The translations under genes were made by a program, and so were the position numbers. From Chamaelirium japonicum (taxonomy: Eukaryota; Streptophyta; Magnoliopsida; Liliales; Melanthiaceae), in contig OX393553.1 in NCBI GenBank assembly GCA_947650365.1, forward strand, positions 40,347,949 through 40,411,948: a DNA stretch of 64,000 nucleotides, read 5' to 3'. Positions 29,900 through 42,273 of the stretch are shown here, in pieces; position 1 is the stretch's first letter, and each line of letters begins with the position of its first letter. The notes beneath the pieces are model-generated. The model did no database searches and was not told the origin of the DNA. It saw only the letters and a program-made list of their open reading frames with translations.

Positions 29900-29902
29900 A
29901 AT
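29900..29902. other. Target-site duplication, left copy (AAT)
   Basis: AAT directly before CACTA. The 3-bp length is standard for CACTA elements. The partner is AAT at 42274-42276. Confidence 0.75.
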
Positions 29903-29914
29903 CACTACAAGAAA
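29903..29914 (+). repeat. 5' terminal inverted repeat of CACTA element
   Basis: CACTACAAGAAA. It matches the complement of 42259-42270 except for one G/A difference at position 9. Confidence 0.95.
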
Positions 29915-29923
29915 GAGGGTCTT

Positions 29924-30684
29924 TACCGACGGACATTATTATCACCGTCGGTAATAATACACTTTTTACCGACGGTGACTATAATATTCGTCGGTATTAT
30001 AACTTCAATTTTTTAAATTTTTTTTGCACATTTATTACCGACGGTCAAATATTATTCGTCGGTAAAAGTATTTATCCCGACAGTACATATATGTACCGTC
30101 GGTAAAATACTTTATACCGACGGCTACATAAAGTCCGTCGGTACAATGTCACGACGAAACTCAGGATAAAATCCAAGCCTCTGGAAAAAAATGGAACCCT
30201 GAGTTTCGTCGGCGGTTTTTACCGACGGAGGTTATATGTCCGTCGGTATAAATAATTATACCGACGAAAATTATATGGCCGTCGGTACGATACCGACGGT
30301 AAAAAATGTCCGTCGGGAAAATTGTCCCGACGAAACTCAGGGTAAAAACCGAGCCTCTGGAAAAAATGGAACCCTGAGTTTCGTCGGCGGTTTTTACCGA
30401 CGGACGTTATATATCCGTCGGTATAAATAATTATACCGACGGACATTATATGACCGTCGGTACCATACCGACGGTAATAAAATTTCCGTCGGGAAAATTG
30501 TCCCGACGAAACTCAGGGTAAAAACCGAGCCTCTGGAAAAAATGGAACCCTGAGTTTCGTCGTATAGGTTTACCGACGGATATGATGTTTTCGTCGGTAT
30601 AACGATTATTTGTACCGACGGTTATTATGTGTCCGTCGGTATAAATATTATTTATACCGACGGACTTAAACGTTCCGTCGGTAA
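29924..30684. promoter_or_regulatory. 5' subterminal repeat array
   Basis: Roughly twenty copies of ACCGACGG and its complement CCGTCGGT, often paired head-to-head as TTACCGACGG...CCGTCGGTAA hairpins with AT-rich spacers. In En/Spm-type elements such arrays are the sites bound by the element's DNA-binding accessory protein, and they also lie next to the promoter. The CpG-rich motif makes the array a likely methylation target. Short open frames on both strands here are by-products of the palindromic repeats. Confidence 0.85.
30152..30562. repeat. Three 176-bp subterminal repeats, each with a 16-bp-arm hairpin
   Basis: The motif CGACGAAACTCAGG starts at 30152, 30328 and 30504, spaced 176 bp. 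Each is followed by its complement ACCCTGAGTTTCGTCG at 30196, 30371 and 30547. The two later copies form perfect 16-bp arms with a loop of about 27 bases. The first copy has one arm mismatch. Between hairpins lie the usual ACCGACGG motifs. Confidence 0.85.
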
Positions 30685-30696
30685 AAACCCTAACCT

Positions 30697-30704
30697 ATTT
30701 AAAC
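30697..30704 (+). promoter_or_regulatory. Possible TATA box of the transposon gene
   Basis: TATTTAAA just inside the subterminal array and about 30 bp before a CT-rich leader, which suits transcription start near 30730. This is positional inference only. Confidence 0.4.
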
Positions 30705-30729
30705 TCCGCGCGATCCCCTTCTCTGTTCG

Positions 30730-30965
30730 ATCTGTTTCGATCTTTCCTGCGCGCCCCGCCCCTCTCTCTCGCTCTCTCTAAATCCGTCCCCCACCCCGGT
30801 ATTACTCGATCCTGCCCCGCCCCTCTCTCTCGCTCTCTCTCTAATTCCGTCCCCCACCCCGGTATTACTCGAATCGAGGGAAAGAGGAGGGGGTCCTGCT
30901 GGGTCGAGGGAGAAATCGAAAAGCTTCTGGGTGCCTCTTCCTTTCTGGTCTTGGCCGCTGACGAG
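30730..30965 (+). other. Putative 5' noncoding exon of the transposon gene
   Basis: CT-rich, GC-rich leader containing a roughly 61-bp tandem duplication (units from 30753 and 30814) with CTCTCTCTCGCTCTCTC tracts. It ends at a good splice-donor candidate, GACGAG|GTATGG (30965/30966). Maize En/Spm has this layout: a noncoding first exon whose long first intron covers the transposase frames. No convincing start codon with a continuing reading frame is present. The start coordinate is inferred from the TATA-like site. Confidence 0.4.
30753..30873. repeat. 61-bp tandem duplication in leader
   Basis: GCCCCGCCCCTCTCTCTC starts at 30753 and again at 30814. The second unit has two extra bases in its CT tract. 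Both copies end CCCCGGTATTACTCGA. Confidence 0.85.
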
Positions 30966-31004
30966 GTATGGGAGACGACCCATTTCTCTCTCTCTCGCTC
31001 TCTC

Positions 31005-31253
31005 TCTCTCTATAATGGTTGGTAATGGGATATGCAGTGCTTGCTTAGATGATGATCAGACATATAATGTAGGGTTTGCTACTTTGCATATGTGGATGGA
31101 TTTTCTTTTCACCCGATCGATATTTATTGGTAAATGCTCTCTTAAAATGTATTGTAGGGTTTGCTTGTTTGACAATGGTTTTTGCCCTTTAGGGTTTTCT
31201 ATAATTTTTTTTTTATTTTAATGTTGGTGAGCCGGATTCTATTGGGGTCGTTG
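31005..31253. other. Transposon interior without recognised gene
   Basis: Starts at the end of a second CT microsatellite (about 30983-31011), followed by AT-rich sequence. An open frame at 31012-31221 has no recognisable domain, and its hydrophobic end comes from T-rich DNA. I do not call it a gene. Confidence 0.6.
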
Positions 31254-31793
31254 CAGTTTGTATAATTATGTTATTGCTACCATGAATAGATTATGTTTGG
31301 AGTTGAATTTAATGTATTGGGTGATGGTATGTTCTTCGAATGTGATATTCGGTGTTCTTCGTTCGCTGATCCACCCTCCGAGTCCACTCGAAACTCGGCC
31401 GAGTCGACTCGACTCGGCTGAGTTTCGATTCGACTCGGTCCAAAACTCGAGTTTCGATCCGACTCGGCTGATTGAGTTTCGATTCGACTCGAGTTTTGTT
31501 GGGTTTTAGACGAGTTGTTGTGTCAGTTTGTATAATTATGTTATTGCTACCATGAATAGAATATGTTTGGAGTTGAATTTAATGTATTGGGTGATGGTAT
31601 GTTTTTCGAATGTGATATTCGGTGTTCTTCGTTCGCTGATCCACCCTCCGAGTCCACTCGAAACTCGGCCGAGTCGACTCGACTCGGCTGAGTTTCGATT
31701 CGACTCGGTCCAAAACTCGAGTTTCGATCCGACTCGGCTGAGTTTCGATTCGACTCGAGTTTTGTCGGGTTTTAGCCGAGTTGTCGTGTCTAC
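31254..31793. repeat. 270-bp tandem duplication with GACTCGA-rich minisatellite
   Basis: Two near-identical units start at 31254 and 31524, both with CAGTTTGTATAATTATG. The second lacks 4 bp (GATTGAG vs GAG), so later bases are offset by 266. The right half of each unit is built from short GACTCGGCTGAGTTTCGATTC-like repeats, with a further CGAGTCGAGTCGAG tail to about 31825. Open frames on both strands are artefacts of the duplication. Confidence 0.88.
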
Positions 31794-31853
31794 TCGACTC
31801 ATTAAGGTTTCGAGTCGAGTCGAGTTTTCGTGTTTTAATTAAAACATTGATTT

Positions 31854-31911
31854 TTTATATCCTATCAAAACTGAATTGAATGGGGGAATAGGGGGCAAAA
31901 TGTAGTTTTTA
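31854..31911. other. Unassigned transposon interior
   Basis: AT-rich with a GGGGGAATAGGGGG tract. No gene or repeat was recognised. Confidence 0.5.
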
Positions 31912-32042
31912 GACTAGGGTGAGCGTCGGTTTTGTCGGTCGATTTCGGTGTCGGTTTTGTCGGTTATATTTTTTTCGGTTTACGAAAAATCAAAACCGAA
32001 ACCGAAACCGAAATGGTCGGTTTTTGTCGGTTCGGTGTGATA
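31912..32042. repeat. GTCGGTTTT/AAAACCGA low-complexity segment, possible nested MITE remnant
   Basis: Starts CTAGGGTGAGCGTCGG, then runs of TCGGTTTTGTCGG, then the complement-like AAAACCGAAACCGAAACCG, then TCGGTTTTTGTCGG again. The internal inverted symmetry resembles the ends of small plant hAT-type elements. No clear terminal repeats or target duplication are visible, so the assignment is tentative. Confidence 0.3.
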
Positions 32043-32063
32043 TGAGGTATGCTAAAGCCATAA

Positions 32064-32282
32064 ATCTACTCGAGTGACAGAGATTTTTACGACATGGGAG
32101 ACAAGGATGCGGGGGTCGTCGATGATGATTTGGATGCATACCAGAATGATGAGATAATCATTGTCGACGCAGTGCACGACGAAAATGAAGATGTCGACAA
32201 TATAAACTGGACAGCGAATGCAGATCAAATAATAGAAGAGGGAAGCGATGAGAGTGACAGAGATGAGACAGAAAATGACTAG
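32064..32282 (+). pseudogene. Possible C-terminal remnant of CACTA transposase (TNPD/TNP2 tail)
   Basis: An open frame ends at TAG 32280-32282. From ATG 32094 it gives 62 residues rich in D and E, with no basic or catalytic region. Reading in from 32064, the frame begins IYSSDRDFYDMGDKDAG. From memory of the family, TNP2-type proteins end in a DUF4216 region followed by an R-D-x-Y/F-D-M turn and an acidic tail, which this resembles. No catalytic transposase domain is present upstream, where 31.9-32.04 kb is low-complexity. If correct, the transposase gene has been almost wholly deleted. It could instead be a chance acidic frame. Confidence 0.4.
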
Positions 32283-32389
32283 ACCGTATGTAAATCAAAT
32301 TGTTTCATATTTAAATCATACTGTTTCACCAATTCATATGTAAATCATACCGTTTCATATGTAAATCATACCGTTTCACCGATTTACGA
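32283..32389. repeat. GTTTCATATGTAAATCATA minisatellite, left of reverse array
   Basis: Three to four imperfect copies of a roughly 21-bp unit (GTTTCATATGTAAATCATA plus CT/CC). The same unit recurs at 33505-33670 on the other side of the 181-bp array. Confidence 0.75.
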
Positions 32390-33500
32390 TCCGACCGATT
32401 CACCGATTTAGAGTCTAAGAGTTGGAAAATCATAAGTTAGCGTGTTTCGGATATGAAATAGGTTTCGATTCGATCGGATCGTCATCGGATCGGCATCCGA
32501 TAATTCGAACTTGGAATTATTCCGTATTTCGGACTTGCGAGCGGGTTCTAATTGGATATTTGACCAAGTTACGCTCCGATTCACCGATTTAGAGTCTAAG
32601 TGTTGGAAAATCATAAGTTAGCGTGTTTCGGATATAAAATAGGTTTGGATTCGATCGGATCGTCATTGGCTCGGTATCCGATAATTCGAACTTAGAATTA
32701 TTCCGTATTTCGGACTTGCGAGCGGGTTCTAATTGGATATTTGACCAATTTACGCTCCGATTCACCGATTTAGAGTCTAAGTGTTGGAAAATCATAAGTT
32801 AGCGTGTTTCGGATGTGAAATAGGTTTGGATTCGATCCGATCGTCATCGGATCGGCATCCGGTAATTCGAAGTTGGATTTATTCCGTATTTCGGACTTGC
32901 GAGCGGGTTCTAATTGGATATTTGACCAATTTACGCTCCGATTCACCGGTTTAGAGTCTAAGTGTTGGAAAATCATAAGTTAGCGTGTTTCGGATATGAA
33001 ATAGGTTTGGATTCGATCCGATCATCATCGGATCGGCATCCGGTAATTCGAAGTTGGAATTATTCCGTATTTCGGACTTGCGAGCGGGTTCTAATTGGAT
33101 ATTTGACCAATTTACGCTCCGATTCACCGGTTTAGAGTCTAAGTGTTGGAAAATCATAAGTTAGCGTGTTTCGGATATGAAATAGGTTTGGATTCGATCC
33201 GATCGTCATCGGATCGGCATCCGGTAATTCGATGTTGGAATTATTCCGTATTTCGGACTTGCGAGCGGGTTCTAATTGGATATTTGACCAATTTACGCTC
33301 CGATTCACCGATTTAGAGTCTAAGTGTTGGAAAATCATAAGTTAGCGTGTTTCGGATATAAAATAGGTTTGGATTCGATCCGATCGTCATCGGATCGGCA
33401 TCCGATAATTCGAACTTGGAATTATATTCCGTATTTCGGACTTCTGAGCGGGTTCTAATTGGGTATTTGACCACTTTACGATCCGATTAACCGATTTAGA
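32390..33500 (-). repeat. 181-bp satellite, reverse array (about 6 units)
   Basis: Tandem units of 181 bp whose standard reading is on the - strand. ATGATTTTCCAACACTTAG complements end at 32614, 32795, 32976, 33157 and 33338, with a degenerate sixth unit to about 33500. The same satellite forms the long + strand array at 35454-41275, so the two arrays are inverted around the gene. Each unit contains a 68-codon frame that overlaps the next unit by 26 bp. This comes from unit uniformity and is not treated as coding. Confidence 0.93.
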
Positions 33501-33504
33501 GTCT

Positions 33505-33670
33505 AACTGTTTCATATTGTTTCATATTGTTTCATATTGCGAGCGGGTTCATATTGTTTTATATTGTTTCATATGTAAATCATACTGTTTCATATATAAA
33601 TCAAACTGTTTCATATTGTTTCATATGTAAATCTTAAATCTTACTGTTTCATATGTAAATTAAATTGTTT
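33505..33670. repeat. GTTTCATATGTAAATCATA minisatellite, right of reverse array
   Basis: Repeated GTTTCATATT and GTTTCATATGTAAATC units. A fragment of the 181-bp unit (GCGAGCGGGTTC, about 33539-33550) is embedded among them, so the two repeat types are intermixed. The last GTTTCAG forms the probable splice acceptor before the start codon at 33674. Confidence 0.75.
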
Positions 33671-33673
33671 CAG

Positions 33674-35374
33674 ATGGCATCACGGTCATATGTTCGTAGA
33701 GGCAGAGGCAGAGGCAGGGGTGGGGTAGCTCAGAGCGCTCCGGCTGCCACCCCAGGGTCCGAGGCTGAGCCGTCCGGATCTGGTAGTGCTGTTCCTCTCT
33801 CCACACCAGCTCCTGCTGTGGTCACAGCCTCCGGAGCTTCGAGCAGTGCTCAGCACTCGGCTGCAGCGTCTACGCCCACAGGTAATGTTTAGATCTAAAG
33901 TTTTATACATGTTGTAAATACTTCTTCAGTACTGATGTATATTTTATTTGCAGGGTCGACCAGGTACGTAGGCGACCGGGGCGTGACGACGGCCCGGCGC
34001 TTGTCGGCCTTACGCGAGCCGCTGTCCCTACAGTGGAGCGGCCATACCTTTGTGGGCGAGCATGCTTCTGACGCCGCCACGTGGGTCGGCATGATAGTAC
34101 GGGAGGAGAGGAATGCCCCGATTGTGGGGTTAAGGGGGTGGAAGAACATTGATGCATCCTATAAGGAGAGGATGTATCAGCAGTTTTTGGTACGTTAGTT
34201 TCATTAAAGCATTTTAGAATAATATCGTACTTCTTTATAATTTGATTTGATAAAATGACTTGTTTCTAAATTGATTTTACAGGAGAAATTTAAATGGGAG
34301 AACATGGAAACCGACACCCATCGGGAGGACTTGTGGAAGACGATGGGTGAGCGGTACAGGGATTACCGTCACGAGCTCTACAAGCTCTACGGTTACTTGG
34401 TCGGCCAGCCGGCTGAGGAGGTACAGGCTGCGGCCGGGACGAGAGACGCGCCACCGCTACACATTCTACAGTTTTTGGTCGCTCACTGGGCCACCCCTAG
34501 CTTTCAGGTATAATTTTAATTTTGTTGATTCGTACTTGTTTTAATGTTATACTAAAAATTTGTATTGATGTTTCAAAATTTAATCGATTGACACAGGTGA
34601 AATCTGCTGTAGGCAAGCAGAATAGAAGTGCCTCGACGACACCTGCTCCAGTGAAGGGGAGGACCTCCATGCCCCAGCTTGCCCAGCAGCTGGTAAATGA
34701 TACAAACATTGTTATTATTTAAAGCTCTATACATGTTATATTAACTCGTCTATTTATTTTATATGTCCAACAGACACAGTCCTTGGGCCACGAGCCTAAT
34801 AGGATTGACCTTTTTGAGGCCTCTAGGAGGCGGCGTATCGATGGGGCATTTCTGGACGACAGGGTTGCCTCGCAAGTGGTAAGTAATTAAATTACTGTTA
34901 ATATATTCTTATACATATGCCATAAAATATCATTGAATATCATTGGTTGTTTTTATATAGGAGAGGATGCGACTTATGGTGACCCCGTCGGGCGAGGCCG
35001 GCTCCTCCTCCAGCTCAGTATCTGTCGACTCAGCGATGGATACTGTGCTGAGACCTGCCACGCACGGCCGTGTCCTCTGTACGGGCCTTGGAGTCACGCC
35101 CTCCTCCTACTTTGGACGAGAGGGTATGCGCTCGAGGGCACGGGACACCCAGACCGGTGCTATCACTCAGCTGCAGTCTGCGCTAGACGCGGAGCGAGAG
35201 CAGAGGCAGGCCCTCGAGCAGAGGATGGAGGCGGAGCGAGAGCAGAGGCAGGCCCTCGAGCAGAGGGTTGAGGCGGAGAAGAAGGCCCTCGATGAGGAAA
35301 GAGAAGCTCGCAGGGAACTGGAGCGTAAATTTAATGAATTCATAAGCCGGTCTAGCGGTGGCTCATCCTCATGA
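33674..35374 (+). CDS. CACTA accessory DNA-binding protein, Transposase_24 (TNPA/TNP1-type), six exons
   Basis: Predicted exons: 33674-33881, 33954-34189, 34283-34507, 34597-34692, 34774-34878 and 34961-35374. All introns are GT-AG, 72-93 bp and AT-rich. Exons join in frame to 427 codons ending TGA. The N-terminus is RG-rich (residues 8-17) and then Ala/Ser/Pro-rich. Residues 70-290 match my knowledge of the plant En/Spm Transposase_24 family (PF03004): WSGHTF, GWKNIDASYKERM, KFKWEN, then NRS, then GHEPNRIDLFEASRRRR. Residues 360-420 form a coiled coil with two identical-phase 14-residue repeats (EREQRQALEQR). The family binds subterminal motifs and assists excision in En/Spm. No premature stop or frameshift is seen, so the gene may be functional. 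The ATG follows a TTTCAG acceptor, so coding begins at the exon start. Confidence 0.85.
35189..35272 (+). repeat. 42-bp in-frame tandem duplication in coiled coil
   Basis: GCGGAGCGAGAGCAGAGGCA starts at 35189 and again at 35231. The two 42-bp units encode 14 residues each (about two heptads), so the duplication lengthens the coiled coil while keeping heptad phase. Confidence 0.9.
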
Positions 35375-35453
35375 TCAGGTACTTACTAATCTTTATAATA
35401 TTAGCAAAAAATATGAATCTTACTAATTTGAGTTTTGATCATATTATCACACT

Positions 35454-35660
35454 TATGATTTTCCAACACTTAGACTATAAATCGGTAAATCGAATCGTAA
35501 ATGGTCACTCTCTCTCTCATGGTAATGATGTAGCCGGTAATGATGTAGCCTCTGTTTTTCTTTTAAATACGGAATAATTCCAAGTTCGAATTACCGGATG
35601 CCGATCCGATGACGATCGGATCGAATCCAAACCTATTTCATATCCGAAACACGCTAACTT
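35454..35660 (+). repeat. Interrupted first 181-bp unit with GGTAATGATGTAGCC doublet
   Basis: The unit starts normally (ATGATTTTCCAACACTTAG) with extra mutations. Bases from about 35504 to 35564, where CAAATATCCAATTAGAACCC is expected, are replaced by unrelated sequence with CTCTCTCTC and two copies of GGTAATGATGTAGCC (35521-35550). The unit then resumes at AATACGGAATAATTCC. Confidence 0.85.
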
Positions 35661-35841
35661 ATGATTTTCCAACACTTAGACTCTAAACCGGTGAATCGGA
35701 GCGTAAATTGGTCAAATATCCAATTAGAACCCGCTCGCAAGTCCGAAATACGGAATAAATCCAACTTCGAATTATCGGATGCCGATCCGATGACGATCGG
35801 ATCGAATCCAAACCTATTTCATATCCGAAACACGCTAACTT

Positions 35842-36738
35842 ATGATTTTCCAACACTTAGACTCTAAATCGGTGAATCGGAGCGTAAATTGGTCAAATAT
35901 CCAATTAGAACCCGCTCGCAAGTCCGAAATACGGAATAATTCCAACTTCGAATTATCGGATGCCGAGCCGAAGACGATCGGATCGAATCCAAACCTATTT
36001 TATATCCGAAACACGTTAACTTATGATTTTCCAACACTTAGACTCTAAATCGGTGAATCGGAGCGTAAATTGGTCAAATATCCAATTAGAACCCGCTCGC
36101 AAGTCCGAAATACGGAATAATTCCAACTTCGAATTACCGGATGCCGATCCGATGACGATCGGATCGAATCCAAACCTATTTCATATCCGAAAGACGCTAA
36201 CTTATGATTTTCCAACACTTAGACTCTAAATCGGTGAATCGAAGCGTAAATTGGTCAAATATCCAATTAGAACCCGCTCGCAAGTCCGAAATACGGAATA
36301 ATTCCAAGTTCGAATTATCGGATGCCGAGCCGATGACGATCCGATCGAATCCAAACCTATTTTATATCCGAAAACTTATGATTTTCCAACACTTAGACTC
36401 TAAATCGGTGAATCGGAGCGTAAATTGGTCAAATATCCAATTAGAACCCGCTCGCAAGTCCGAAATACGGAATAAATCCAACTTCGAATTATCGGATGCC
36501 GATCCGATGACGATCGGATCGAATCCAAACCTATTTCATATCCGAAACACGCTAACTTATGATTTTCCAACACTTAGACTCTAAACCGGTGAATCGGAGC
36601 GTAAATTGGTCAAATATCCAATTAGAACCCGCTCGCAAGTCCGAAATACGGAATAATTCCAGTTCGAATTACCGGATGCCGAGCCGATGACGATCGGATC
36701 GAATCCAAACCTATTTCATATCCGAAACACGCTAACTT
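35842..36738 (+). repeat. Five-unit block of 181-bp array, copy A
   Basis: The order of unit variants (ACACGTTAAC end; GATGCCGATCC unit; GAATCGAAGCG plus 7-bp deletion; AATAAATCC unit; AAACCGGTG unit) recurs at 37456-38353, about 1.61 kb downstream. This indicates a block duplication inside the array. Confidence 0.8.
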
Positions 36739-37455
36739 ATGATTTTCCAACACTTAGACTCTAAATCGGTGAATCGGAGCGTAAATTGGTCAAATATCCA
36801 ATTAGAACCCGCTCGCAAGTCCGAAATACGGAATAATTCCAAGTTCGAATTACCGGATGCCGAGCCGATGACGATCGGATCGAATCCAAACCTATTTCAT
36901 ATCCGAAACACGCTAACTTATGATTTTCCAACACTTAGACTCTAAATCGGTGAATCGGAGCGTAAATTGGTCAAATATCCAATTAGAACCCGCTCGCAAG
37001 TCCGAAATACGGAATAATTCCAACTTCGAATTACCGGATGCCGATCCGATGACGATCGGATCGAATCCAAACCTATTTCATATCCGAAACACGCTAACTT
37101 ATGATTTTCCAACACTTAGACTCTAAATCGGTGAATCGGAGCGTAAATTGGTCAAATATCCAATTAGAACCCGCTCGCAAGTCCGAAATACGGAATAATT
37201 CCAAGTTCGAATTACCGGATGCCGAGCCGATGACGATCCGATCGAATCCAAACCTATTTTATATCCGAAACACGCTAACTTATGATTTTCCAACACTTAG
37301 ACTCTAAATCGGTGAATCGGAGCGTAAATTGGTCAAATATCCAATTAGAACCCGCTCGCAAGTCCGAAATACGGAATAATTCCAAGTTCGAATTATCGGA
37401 TGCCGAGCCGATGACGATCCGATCGAATCCAAACCTATTTTATATCCGAAAACTT

Positions 37456-38353
37456 ATGATTTTCCAACACTTAGACTCTAAATCGGTGAATCGGAGCGTA
37501 AATTGGTCAAATATCCAATTAGAACCCGCTCGCAAGTCCGAAATACGGAATAATTCCAACTTCGAATTATCGGATGCCGAGCCGATGACGATCGGATCGA
37601 ATCCAAACCTATTTTATATCCGAAACACGTTAACTTATGATTTTCCAACACTTAGACTCTAAATCGGTGAATCGGAGCGTAAATTGGTCAAATATCCAAT
37701 TAGAACCCGCTCGCAAGTCCGAAATACGGAATAATTCCAACTTCGAATTACCGGATGCCGATCCGATGACGATCGGATCGAATCCAAACCTATTTCATAT
37801 CCGAAACACGCTAACTTATGATTTTCCAACACTTAGACTCTAAATCGGTGAATCGAAGCGTAAATTGGTCAAATATCCAATTAGAACCCGCTCGCAAGTC
37901 CGAAATACGGAATAATTCCAAGTTCGAATTATCGGATGCCGAGCCGATGACGATCCGATCGAATCCAAACCTATTTTATATCCGAAAACTTATGATTTTC
38001 CAACACTTAGACTCGAAATCGGTGAATCGGAGCTTAAATTGGTCAAATATCCAATTAGAACCCGCTCGCAAGTCCGAAATACGGAATAAATCCAACTTCG
38101 AATTATCCGATGCCGATCCGATGACGATCGGATCGAATCCAAACCTATTTCATATCCGAAACACGCTAACTTATGATTTTCCAACACTTAGACTCTAAAC
38201 CGGTGAATCGGAGCGTAAATTGGTCAAATATCCAATTAGAACCCGCTCGCAAGTCCGAAATACGGAATAATTCCAAGTTCGAATTACCGGATGCCGAGCC
38301 GATGACGATCGGATCGAATCCAAACCTATTTCATATCCGAAACACGCTAACTT
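37456..38353 (+). repeat. Five-unit block of 181-bp array, copy B
   Basis: Partner of 35842-36738, with the same order of diagnostic variants including the 7-bp deletion at the end of the third unit (near 37985). Private changes such as CTCGAAATC and GAGCTTAAATT in the unit at 37992 show later divergence. Confidence 0.8.
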
Positions 38354-38896
38354 ATGATTTTCCAACACTTAGACTCTAAATCGGTGAATCGGAGCGTAAA
38401 TTGGTCAAATATCCAATTAGAACCCGCTCGCAAGTCCGAAATACGGAATAATTCCAAGTTCGAATTACCGGATGCCGAGCCGATGACGATCGGATCGAAT
38501 CCAAACCTATTTCATATCCGAAACACGCTAACTTATGATTTTCCAACACTTAGACTCTAAATCGGTGAATCGGAGCGTAAATTGGTCAAATATCCAATTA
38601 GAACCCGCTCGCAAGTCCGAAATACGGAATAATTCCAAGTTCGAATTACCGGATGCCGAGCCGATGACGATCCGATCGAATCCAAACCTATTTTATATCC
38701 GAAACACGCTAACTTATGATTTTCCAACACTTAGACTCTAAATCGGTGAATCGGAGCGTAAATTGGTCAAATATCCAATTAGAACCCGCTCGCAAGTCCG
38801 AAATACGGAATAATTCCAAGTTCGAATTACCGGATGCCGAGCCGATGACGATCCGATCGAATCCAAACCTATTTTATATCCGAAACACGCTAACTT

Positions 38897-40706
38897 ATGA
38901 TTTTCCAACACTTAGACTCTAAATCGGTGAATCGGAGCGTAAATTGGTCAAATATCCAATTAGAACCCGCTCGCAAGTCCGAAATACGGAATAATTCCAA
39001 GTTCGAATTACCGGATGCCGAGCCGATGACGATCGGATCGAATCCAAACCTATTTCATATCCGAAACACGCTAACTTATGATTTTCCAACACTTAGACTC
39101 TAAATCGGTGAATCGGAGCGTAAATTGGTCAAATATCCAATTAGAACCCGCTCGCAAGTCCGAAATACGGAATAATTCCAAGTTCGAATTACCGGATGCC
39201 GAGCCGATGACGATCGGATCGAATCCAAACCTATTTCATATCCGAAACACGCTAACTTATGATTTTCCAACACTTAGACTCTAAATCGGTGAATCGGAGC
39301 GTAAATTGGTCAAATATCCAATTAGAACCCGCTCGCAAGTCCGAAATACGGAATAATTCCAAGTTCGAATTACCGGATGCCGAGCCGATGACGATCGGAT
39401 CGAATCCAAACCTATTTCATATCCGAAACACGCTAACTTATGATTTTCCAACACTTAGACTCTAAATCGGTGAATCGGAGCATAAATTGGTCAAATATCC
39501 AATTAGAACCCGCTCGCAAGTCCGAAATACGGAATAATTCCAAGTTCGAATTACCGGATGCCGAGCCGATGACGATCGGATCGAATCCAAACCTATTTCA
39601 TATCCGAAACACGCTAACTTATGATTTTCCAACACTTAGACTCTAAATCGGTGAATCGGAGCGTAAATTGGTCAAATATCCAATTAGAACCCGCTCGCAA
39701 GTCCGAAATACGGAATAATTCCAAGTTCGAATTACCGGATGCCGAGCCGATGACGATCGGATCGAATCCAAACCTATTTCATATCCGAAACACGCTAACT
39801 TATGATTTTCCAACACTTAGACTCTAAATCGGTGAATCGGAGCGTAAATTGGTCAAATATCCAATTAGAACCCGCTCGCAAGTCCGAAATACGGAATAAT
39901 TCCAAGTTCGAATTACCGGATGCCGAGCCGATGACGATCGGATCGAATCCAAACCTATTTCATATCCGAAACACGCTAACTTATGATTTTCCAACACTTA
40001 GACTCTAAATCGGTGAATCGGAGCGTAAATTGGTCAAATATCCAATTAGAACCCGCTCGCAAGTCCGAAATACGGAATAATTCCAAGTTCGAATTACCGG
40101 ATGCCGAGCCGATGACGATCGGATCGAATCCAAACCTATTTCATATCCGAAACACGCTAACTTATGATTTTCCAACACTTAGACTCTAAATCGGTGAATC
40201 GGAGCGTAAATTGGTCAAATATCCAATTAGAACCCGCTCGCAAGTCCGAAATACGGAATAATTCCAAGTTCGAATTACCGGATGCCGAGCCGATGACGAT
40301 CGGATCGAATCCAAACCTATTTCATATCCGAAACACGCTAACTTATGATTTTCCAACACTTAGACTCTAAATCGGTGAATCGGAGCGTAAATTGGTCAAA
40401 TATCCAATTAGAACCCGCTCGCAAGTCCGAAATACGGAATAATTCCAAGTTCGAATTACCGGATGCCGAGCCGATGACGATCGGATCGAATCCAAACCTA
40501 TTTCATATCCGAAACACGCTAACTTATGATTTTCCAACACTTAGACTCTAAATCGGTGAATCGGAGCGTAAATTGGTCAAATATCCAATTAGAACCCGCT
40601 CGCAAGTCCGAAATACGGAATAATTCCAAGTTCGAATTACCGGATGCCGAGCCGATGACGATCGGATCGAATCCAAACCTATTTCATATCCGAAACACGC
40701 TAACTT
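38897..40706 (+). repeat. Homogenised ten-unit block of the 181-bp array
   Basis: Ten consecutive 181-bp units (starts 38897 to 40526) appear identical or nearly so. The only difference I noticed is CATAAATTGG at 39481. The preceding and following units are more variable, which suggests recent expansion of a single unit type. Confidence 0.85.
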
Positions 40707-41319
40707 ATGATTTTCCAACACTTAGACTCTAAATCGGTGAATCGGAGCGTAAATTGGTCAAATATCCAATTAGAACCCGCTCGCAAGTCCGAAATACGGA
40801 ATAATTCCAACTTCGAATTACCGGATGCCGATCCGATGACGATCGGATCGAATCCAAACCTATTTCATATCCGAAACACGCTAACTTATAATTTTCCAAC
40901 ACTTAGACTCTAAATCGGTGAATCGGAGCGTAAATTGGTCAAATATCCAATTAGAACCCGCTCGCAAGTCCGAAATACGGAATAATTCCAAGTTCGAATT
41001 ATCGAATGCCGAGCCGATGACGATCGGATCGAATCCAAACCTATTTCATATCCGAAACACGCTAACTTATGATTTTCCAACACTTAGACTCTAAATCGGT
41101 GAATCGGAGCGTAAATTGGTCAAATATCCAATTAGAACCCGCTCGCAAGTCCGAAATACGGAATAATTCCAAGTTCAAATTACCGGATGCCGAGCCGATG
41201 ACGATCGGATCGAATCCAAACCTATTTCAAAATCGAAACACGCTAACTTATCATTTTTTAACGCTTAGACTCAGTTATAGATATAAACCATTTTTTTAAC
41301 AAATACATGTTAATTGCAG

Positions 41320-41500
41320 GAGCAGGGCGGCGTCAGGGGATCGATGAGAGCACCAGCGTTGGTGGTGGGCGGGCGTGGTTGAGATAGGGCGGCGTCAGGG
41401 GATCGATGAGAGCACCGGCGTTGGTGGCGGGCGGGGGTGGTTGAGATAGGACATGTATCATCTCTCAATTCTGGATTGTGTAAATATTGTTTTGTAATAT
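41320..41500 (+). other. Putative terminal noncoding exon
   Basis: Follows the acceptor TTAATTGCAG. It is GC-rich at first and contains two 62-bp tandem units (41325-41386 and 41387-41448) that start GGGCGGCGTCAGGGG. It then becomes AT-rich (ACATGTATCATCTCTC, TTTTGTAATATATGG), as expected of a 3' end. The true polyadenylation site cannot be fixed, so the end given is arbitrary. Confidence 0.4.
41325..41448. repeat. 62-bp tandem duplication
   Basis: Two 62-bp units, each ending GGTTGAGATA, with a few substitutions (CACCAGCG vs CACCGGCG, GTGGTGGG vs GTGGCGGG). Confidence 0.9.
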
Positions 41501-41540
41501 ATGGTTATTTTTTCTTCTATCTATAATTGTCGGCCGGGAA

Positions 41541-41665
41541 CTGTGGTAATATTTGATAATTTGCTGTAATTTTTTATCAATTTAGGTAATATTTTATAAA
41601 TTGTGGTAATATTTGATAAATTGTGGTAATATTTGATAAATTGTGGTAATATATTGTGGTATTGA
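41541..41665. repeat. AT-rich ATTGTGGTAATATTTGATAA minisatellite
   Basis: About four to five imperfect copies of a roughly 20-bp unit between the putative terminal exon and the 3' subterminal array. No gene is present. An open frame beginning in this region (41643-41843) runs into the subterminal motifs and is not credible. Confidence 0.8.
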
Positions 41666-41723
41666 ATCACAGGAATTAAATAACATTATTTATGTAAATT
41701 TATTAAAAAAAAAAAGATACTTA

Positions 41724-42250
41724 TTACCGACGGAAATAAATTATTCCGTCGGTAATAATATTTTTATTTTTTTTAAATTATTAATGATTTGCCGACGGCA
41801 TATAATATCCGTCGGTAATATATATAGTATTACCGACGGGTAATATATATATCCGTCGGTAATATATATAGTATTACCGACGGTGATATTAATTTGGTCG
41901 GTAATATATATATTATTACCGACGGGTAATATATATATGTGTCGGTAATATATATAGTATTACCGACAGTATAAACTATACTCGTCGGTAAAATGTTTAT
42001 ATATTACCGACGGATTCTTATAGTTCGTCGGCAATACTATATTATATTAGTTTTAAATTGATTAAATATTACCGACGGCGTTCTAATTACCGTCGGTATT
42101 AATTATTAATACCGACGGTAATATTTGGTCCGTCGTATTGTTTTCCCCGACGCCTTTTTTCCCGACAGCCAGCGACGGAAATATCTTCCGTCGCTATATA
42201 ATATTACCGACGAAATTTTAATATTACCGACGGATATTGTCCGTCGGTAA
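41724..42250. promoter_or_regulatory. 3' subterminal repeat array
   Basis: Dense ACCGACGG/CCGTCGGT motifs arranged as TTACCGACGG...CCGTCGGTAA hairpins with AT spacers (for example 41724-41757 and 42221-42250). Many copies include the variant GTAATATATATAGTATTACCGACGG. These mirror the 5' array and are the presumed binding sites of the accessory protein. The 176-bp hairpin module of the 5' end is absent here. Confidence 0.87.
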
Positions 42251-42258
42251 TAACTGTT

Positions 42259-42270
42259 TTTTTTGTAGTG
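42259..42270 (-). repeat. 3' terminal inverted repeat of CACTA element
   Basis: Reads TTTTTTGTAGTG on the + strand, so the complement begins CACTACAAAAAA. It is followed by TTT and then the AAT target-site copy. Confidence 0.93.
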
Positions 42271-42273
42271 TTT

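Follow-up and report, generated by a model that had tools for sequence, protein, structure and literature searches.

A single 181-bp satellite forms two arrays, inverted to each other, inside a CACTA (En/Spm-type) transposon on contig C5 of the 1.52-Gb genome of Chamaelirium japonicum, within a 64,000-nucleotide stretch referred to here as the window. A short array on the minus strand and a long array on the plus strand flank an intact gene of the Transposase_24 family, and comparison with other copies demonstrates that this inverted layout travels with the element. We put at about 0.68 the probability that the window copy arose by deletion within a young En/Spm-type CACTA family with two genes, and that its arrays are passenger DNA spread by transposition. 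CACTA elements with satellite arrays close to the 3′ end are already known; what is new here is a second array that is inverted, internal and placed between two transposase genes.

The array units were located by BLAST of one 181-bp unit against the element. Full units of the left array span 32374-33436, followed by a 75-bp edge that runs on to 33511; those of the right array span 35565-41153, with a 119-bp partial unit ending at 41272 and, on the opposite side, a degenerate edge of 57 bp (35451-35507). Tandem Repeats Finder (TRF) gave 6.2 copies (95% matches) and 31.7 copies (97% matches), consistent with BLAST for the left and right arrays. An earlier sequence-only reading of this DNA had described about 6 units on the minus strand and about 31 on the plus strand, roughly 2 kb apart, and both methods confirm the arrays, with a gap of ~1.9-2.1 kb. 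The mean difference between units is 1.7% in the right array, 4.5% in the left and 3.2% when left units are compared with right ones, and because these differences are so low the arrays are one satellite, far beyond chance. Three right-array units measure 174 bp and recur inside repeated blocks of unit types. BLAST of the unit found no further match inside the window element beyond the two arrays, which lie about 2.5 kb (left) and 1 kb (right) from the ends of this copy.

The element belongs to the CACTA superfamily by its termini, CACTA...TAGTG terminal inverted repeats that read CACTACAAGAAAGAGGG from 29903 and TTTTTTTTGTAGTG ending at 42270, and by direct and inverted subterminal repeats (TACCGACGG/CCGTCGGTA) at both ends. 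The gene between the arrays encodes a 427-aa protein that matches Pfam Transposase_24 (PF03004) with E=3.2e-15 and 56.9 bits (cut-off 28.7) over positions 6-137 of the 138 in the profile, as the sequence-only reading had recognized when it proposed a transposon gene of this type. All introns have canonical GT-AG borders and the 427-codon frame is open, indicating that the gene is intact.

Other copies of the element, which the sequence-only reading had suggested searching for the same layout, were retrieved using gene-only DNA as the query, with the satellite excluded. This yielded 1,747 first-look candidates, 40 of which were scored; all 40 stood at 100% identity and were distributed over 15 contigs. 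Thirty of them, including the window copy, were fetched with 1.5 kb on each side. Over 1,703 bases, their TNPA-like genes show 0-3 differences from that of the window, the frame reaches the same stop in 29 of 30 copies (one codon earlier in the remaining copy) and the internal splice sites are intact in all 30. The abundance of near-identical copies indicates that the family moved recently. The right array is present in direct orientation in 30 of 30 copies, with six or more units within 1.5 kb. A complete, inverted left array occurs in 20 of 30 copies, comprising 17 with six units, two with seven and one with at least seven that runs off the stretch; it is truncated in four, reduced to the 75-bp edge in five and absent in one, such that 24 copies keep at least one full inverted unit. 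All five other copies that were read to both ends are bounded by perfect 3-bp target duplications, as expected of CACTA elements, and four of these five carry both arrays.

Longer copies define what the window element has lost. One copy on contig C7, read end to end, measures 14,647 bp with an ACA duplication on both sides, and its TNPD region contains the tnp2-type transposase domain typical of CACTA elements (Transposase_21, 7.9e-101) together with Transpos_assoc (4.9e-20), DUF4218 (1.3e-30) and DUF4216 (2.9e-23). The region consists of three open frames, the last of which (...RDETEND) stops just before the left array; in TNPD-bearing copies the left array thus follows the TNPD stop and precedes the TNPA start. 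All four longer copies (two on C7, one on C9 and one on C1) have the TNPD region. Its first frame is uninterrupted in three of the four and broken in the C1 copy (L034). The C9 copy (L019) did not yield the last frame as a single long open frame, and its left end is a variant with only 78% similarity. The window element aligns with the C7 element in two blocks, one covering its first 2,181 bases (99.7%) and one starting at the TNPD tail, and the blocks overlap by 6 bp where they meet. The intervening part, about 3,704 bp of TNPD by arithmetic on the alignment coordinates and including the tnp2-type domain, is missing, which on this alignment makes the window copy a TNPD-deleted derivative. The arrangement had been described as symmetrical and intronic around one gene. 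The satellite is indeed inverted on both sides, but a single gene framed by two symmetrical introns is too simple a picture, as the left array in TNPD-bearing copies separates the end of TNPD from the beginning of the TNPA-like gene.

Inspection of splice motifs outlines how a transcript might run through the element. A single left promoter with splicing from 30965 to 33674 would place the left array in the first TNPA intron, and a candidate donor at 35379, 4 nt past the stop codon, with an acceptor at 41319 would place the right array in a 3′ intron. The acceptor motif TTAATTGCAG/GAGCAG (slash, splice border) was found in five of five other copies read at that site. At the level of motifs, the arrays would accordingly fall outside coding exons, in agreement with the sequence-only reading. 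Maize En/Spm has a short first exon and a large first intron, which fits the motifs of this element. The likeness to En/Spm extends to TNPD and TNPA-type genes on one strand, CACTA ends and repetitive subterminal regions, whereas the second gene here is recognized by Transposase_24 and is called TNPA-like by that profile. Maize En/Spm is not known to have satellite arrays around tnpA.

Comparison of the arrays among copies bears on their origin. In six copies counted, the right array holds 31, 23, 21, 17, 25 and 32 units of at least 170 bp, always in one orientation; in the left array, the order and most of the sequence of the units are constant between copies and the length is nearly fixed. 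Unit variants were counted across units of 179-183 bp, 110 from the left array and 176 from the right, with partial, 174-bp and irregular units dropped. Thirteen of the 16 common variants are shared by the two arrays (one of these only once on the left), indicating that the arrays draw on a common pool and thus had a shared source or exchanged sequence. The same count makes it less likely that each array was amplified independently from a single monomer. At one site, every interior unit that could be read in either array has a G (280 units; the other 6 of 286 were unreadable), and all three degenerate edge fragments that cover it have a T.

The passenger reading can be set out as a series of steps. 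From left to right, the longer form would comprise a left end with a presumed single promoter, TNPD (Transpos_assoc, tnp2, DUF4218 and DUF4216), the short minus-strand array, the TNPA-like gene, the long plus-strand array and the 3′ end; this order is seen in the sequence, and the promoter, splicing and 3′ exon are deduced from motifs. The long 3′ array probably changes length by unequal exchange. The short array is probably a multi-unit piece of the same array that became inverted and has hardly changed in length since then, with its likeness to the long array kept by common descent or inter-array conversion, as the shared variants suggest. Base pairing of the two arrays in the pre-mRNA could create a stem of ~1.1 kb with the TNPA exons in its loop. 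Small RNAs directed at the arrays are probably the most that such a stem would produce, and mobility would be little affected.

Several observations weigh against this reading. The 30 copies were picked by gene similarity and represent the youngest members, with older subfamilies outside the sample; their common layout therefore reflects shared descent rather than independent upkeep. Three of the 16 common variants are confined to one array: a left-array insertion of 2 bases, which contributes two to the count, and a single right-array substitution. Many right-array registers align about equally well with the left array (96.2-96.6%) and no stretch stands out as its parent; this does not single out a simple recent inverted copy of one right-array stretch, and an inverted insertion and an inversion are both compatible with it. 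Finally, the 3-bp flanks of the window copy, AAT (29900-29902) and TTT (42271-42273), do not form a matching target duplication.

We regard a silencing function as the foremost alternative, although an unlikely one. Here, a read-through or unspliced transcript would fold on the arrays and be diced into small interfering RNAs (siRNAs), leading to methylation of the element and self-limitation. The computed pairing is strong: the predicted RNA duplex between the left array and 1,150 nt of the right array has an energy of -1971.5 kcal/mol, versus -459.7 kcal/mol with 1,150 nt of the gene region. By computed pairing, the hairpin stem of roughly 1 kb proposed in the sequence-only reading could thus form, at ~1.1 kb. 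In plants, hairpin transgenes become methylated at the inverted repeat and the adjacent promoter, according to one report (PMC9263138). The mutation spectrum of the 17 copies with a six-unit left array is consistent with methylation of one kind. C-to-T changes in the left array affect 21 of 204 CG, 2 of 72 CHG and 2 of 198 CHH sites, compared with 6 of 188 CG, 2 of 195 CHG and 4 of 482 CHH sites in the gene. CG decay in the left array exceeds both its CHH decay (Fisher p=4e-5) and the CG decay of the gene (Fisher p=0.008), whereas CHH decay, itself a weak readout, shows no excess over the gene (Fisher p=1). The test is a weak one; the gene was selected for similarity, and exchange between units may contribute some of the changes. 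The left-array spectrum fits ordinary CG methylation and bears no measurable trace of the CHH methylation that hairpin siRNAs would be expected to cause.

The history of the family also speaks against self-silencing, as its many near-identical copies point to recent movement. Five of the 30 copies form one lineage without the left array, with 0-2 mutual differences over 4,703 bp; the member read to both ends, on C8, has a GCG duplication and about 2.4 kb from left end to gene. This lineage recently multiplied, indicating that the inverted arm is not needed for spread, at least with proteins supplied by other copies. Together with the absence of a measurable CHH excess, its spread leaves the earlier proposal that the arrays silence or spare the element unsupported. 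As a separate observation, in this recently amplified lineage (L016, L017, L020, L029, L030; L039) the left end is only ~70-75% similar, and a stretch without a match to the window element, possibly captured host sequence, takes the place of TNPD and the left array.

Pairing of the arrays could instead act on splicing, an idea that we find quite improbable. With the TNPA exons looped out, skipping would produce more TNPD mRNA, or back-splicing would yield circular RNA, and the TNPD:TNPA ratio would be set in this way. En/Spm TNPA and TNPD derive from one pre-mRNA, and here exactly the six TNPA exons, with their invariably intact splice motifs, lie between the arrays. Reverse-complementary repeats help circular RNA formation, as stated in a further report (PMC8516420). 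Partial or complete loss of the left array in 10 of the 30 copies argues against such a device, although the lineage without the left array is too short to hold TNPD and its array loss consequently says little about copies that make both proteins. A broader proposal appears very improbable: the arrays would serve an autonomous CACTA family as an RNA switch, looping out the TNPA exons and balancing the two transposase proteins through skipping or circularization, and also as a sink that draws silencing RNAs away from the promoter.

That one array was misplaced or inverted by the assembler, which the sequence-only reading had named as grounds for its own refutation, is scarcely credible: assembly of long tandem arrays is difficult, and the flanks of the window copy, inside a 23-bp satellite, do not match, but the same junctions occur at many loci and contigs, and the recurrence of the layout elsewhere, including the four two-array copies with perfect target duplications, leaves little room for misassembly and rules out a local rearrangement.

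The layout has partial counterparts among known transposons. In Jozin, a CACTA element of Chenopodium quinoa, one 16.5-kb copy has a tandem array of 32.5 monomers, each of 171 bp, near the 3′ end (PMC8978399). Jozin shares tnp2 domains and subterminal repeats with the element described here, and the place and scale of its array match those of the right array, which is therefore of a known kind; all six copies counted have such a long array of ~170-180-bp monomers near the 3′ end, with 17-32 units. In contrast, the accessible part of the description of Jozin gives it a single array near the 3′ end and includes no second, inverted one (PMC8978399). Kinship between the 181-bp and the quinoa 171-bp monomers was rejected, as their alignment score fell below the shuffle mean and 193 of 200 shuffles scored at least as high. 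Tetris, a foldback transposon of Drosophila virilis, has ~220-bp tandem repeats (TIR-220) in both terminal inverted repeats, with possible homogenization (PMC4079207). Its arrays are likewise inverted to each other, but they form part of the terminal inverted repeats, whereas those described here are internal, unequal and flank one CACTA gene. A foldback transposon was rejected on this basis, the ends here being short CACTA repeats. The Tpn1/TpnA1 CACTA family of Ipomoea nil has different subterminal tandem repeats at each end, of 122 bp and 104 bp, and the accessible part of that report mentions no single satellite inverted around TnpA (PMC5105172). The inverted two-array layout was not found described in the accessible portions of the literature on CACTA elements and transposons with satellite, tandem or inverted arrays.

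More distant relatives within the genome were also compared. Of 28 matches, eight distant Transposase_24 loci (L001-L008) were kept and read with about 1.5 kb on each side, and five of these match the window protein at E<0.001 (25.9-29.6% identity over 71-112 residues). TRF found no array like the 181-bp satellite in any of the eight, returning only a 2.3-copy run of 23 bp (L004) and a 2-copy run of 21 bp (L005), and no inverted repeats of at least 40 bp were present in the four loci checked for them.

The remaining features of the element and its surroundings are as follows (Table 1). The window element was inserted in a long array of a 23-bp satellite (GAATGAATTAGAATGGATCGTAC), which surrounds it at 1-29902 and 42271-64000 and switches orientation many times on both sides, in same-orientation runs of a few hundred bases to about 6 kb (TRF). 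Another family member, L036 (C17:2060913 region), lies in the same 23-bp satellite and has an extreme internal deletion, by which roughly the initial 99 bp of the element (94% similar) abut the sequence that immediately precedes the gene. Within the left subterminal region, two to three copies of a ~175-bp unit occupy 30114-30562 (TRF and sequence); each contains an inverted repeat, AAACTCAGGGT ... ACCCTGAGTTT (AAACTCAGGAT in the first unit), that could form a small hairpin. A 270-bp direct duplication (TRF, 95% matches) with CCGAGTCGACTCGACTCGG motifs lies at 31247-31790, inside the presumed first intron, and the right subterminal region includes an AT-rich stretch with ATTAAA/AATAAA motifs at 41675, 41702 and 41735. 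The CpG observed/expected ratio is 2.05-2.82 in both arrays and both subterminal regions (2.24 in the left subterminal region, 29903-30690) and 0.86 in the gene.

Table 1. Features of the CACTA element in the window and target duplications of its other copies
Feature	Position	Strand	Basis
CACTA (En/Spm-type) transposon, 12,368 bp	29903..42270	+	Terminal motifs read directly; alignment to C7 copy
Left subterminal region, many TACCGACGG / CCGTCGGTA repeats	29903..30690	+	Sequence, TRF
Candidate promoter (TATTTAAA at 30696) and putative noncoding first exon ending GAG/GTATGG	30696..30965	+	Motif inspection
TNPD coding-region 3′ tail (...RDETEND stop)	32078..32282	+	Alignment to C7 copy; same C-terminus in L040
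Left satellite array, 6 units of 181 bp and 75-bp edge, inverted relative to right array	32374..33511	-	BLAST; unit comparisons
TNPA-like (Transposase_24) gene, six exons, 427 aa	33674..35374	+	Open frame, profile match
TNPA-like gene exons	33674-33881, 33954-34189, 34283-34507, 34597-34692, 34774-34878, 34961-35374	+	Splice borders
Candidate 3′ untranslated region intron (TCAG/GTACTT ... TTGCAG/GAGCAG) enclosing right array	35379..41319	+	Motif inspection
Right satellite array, 31 units and 119-bp partial	35565..41272	+	BLAST, TRF
Right subterminal region, CCGTCGGTAATA repeats	41450..42270	+	TRF and sequence
Target duplications of other copies: ACA (C7), ATC (C7), TAT (C9), AGT (C1), GCG (C8, left-array-less lineage)			

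Work on hairpin transgenes would predict that a long inverted repeat in a transcribed transposon leads to self-silencing, yet this family carries one, even in copies that hold both transposase genes, and multiplied recently. The sister lineage that lacks the left array provides a natural comparison for asking whether an intronic inverted satellite raises or lowers the visibility of an element to silencing. The family also adds to the known cases of satellite DNA carried by CACTA elements.

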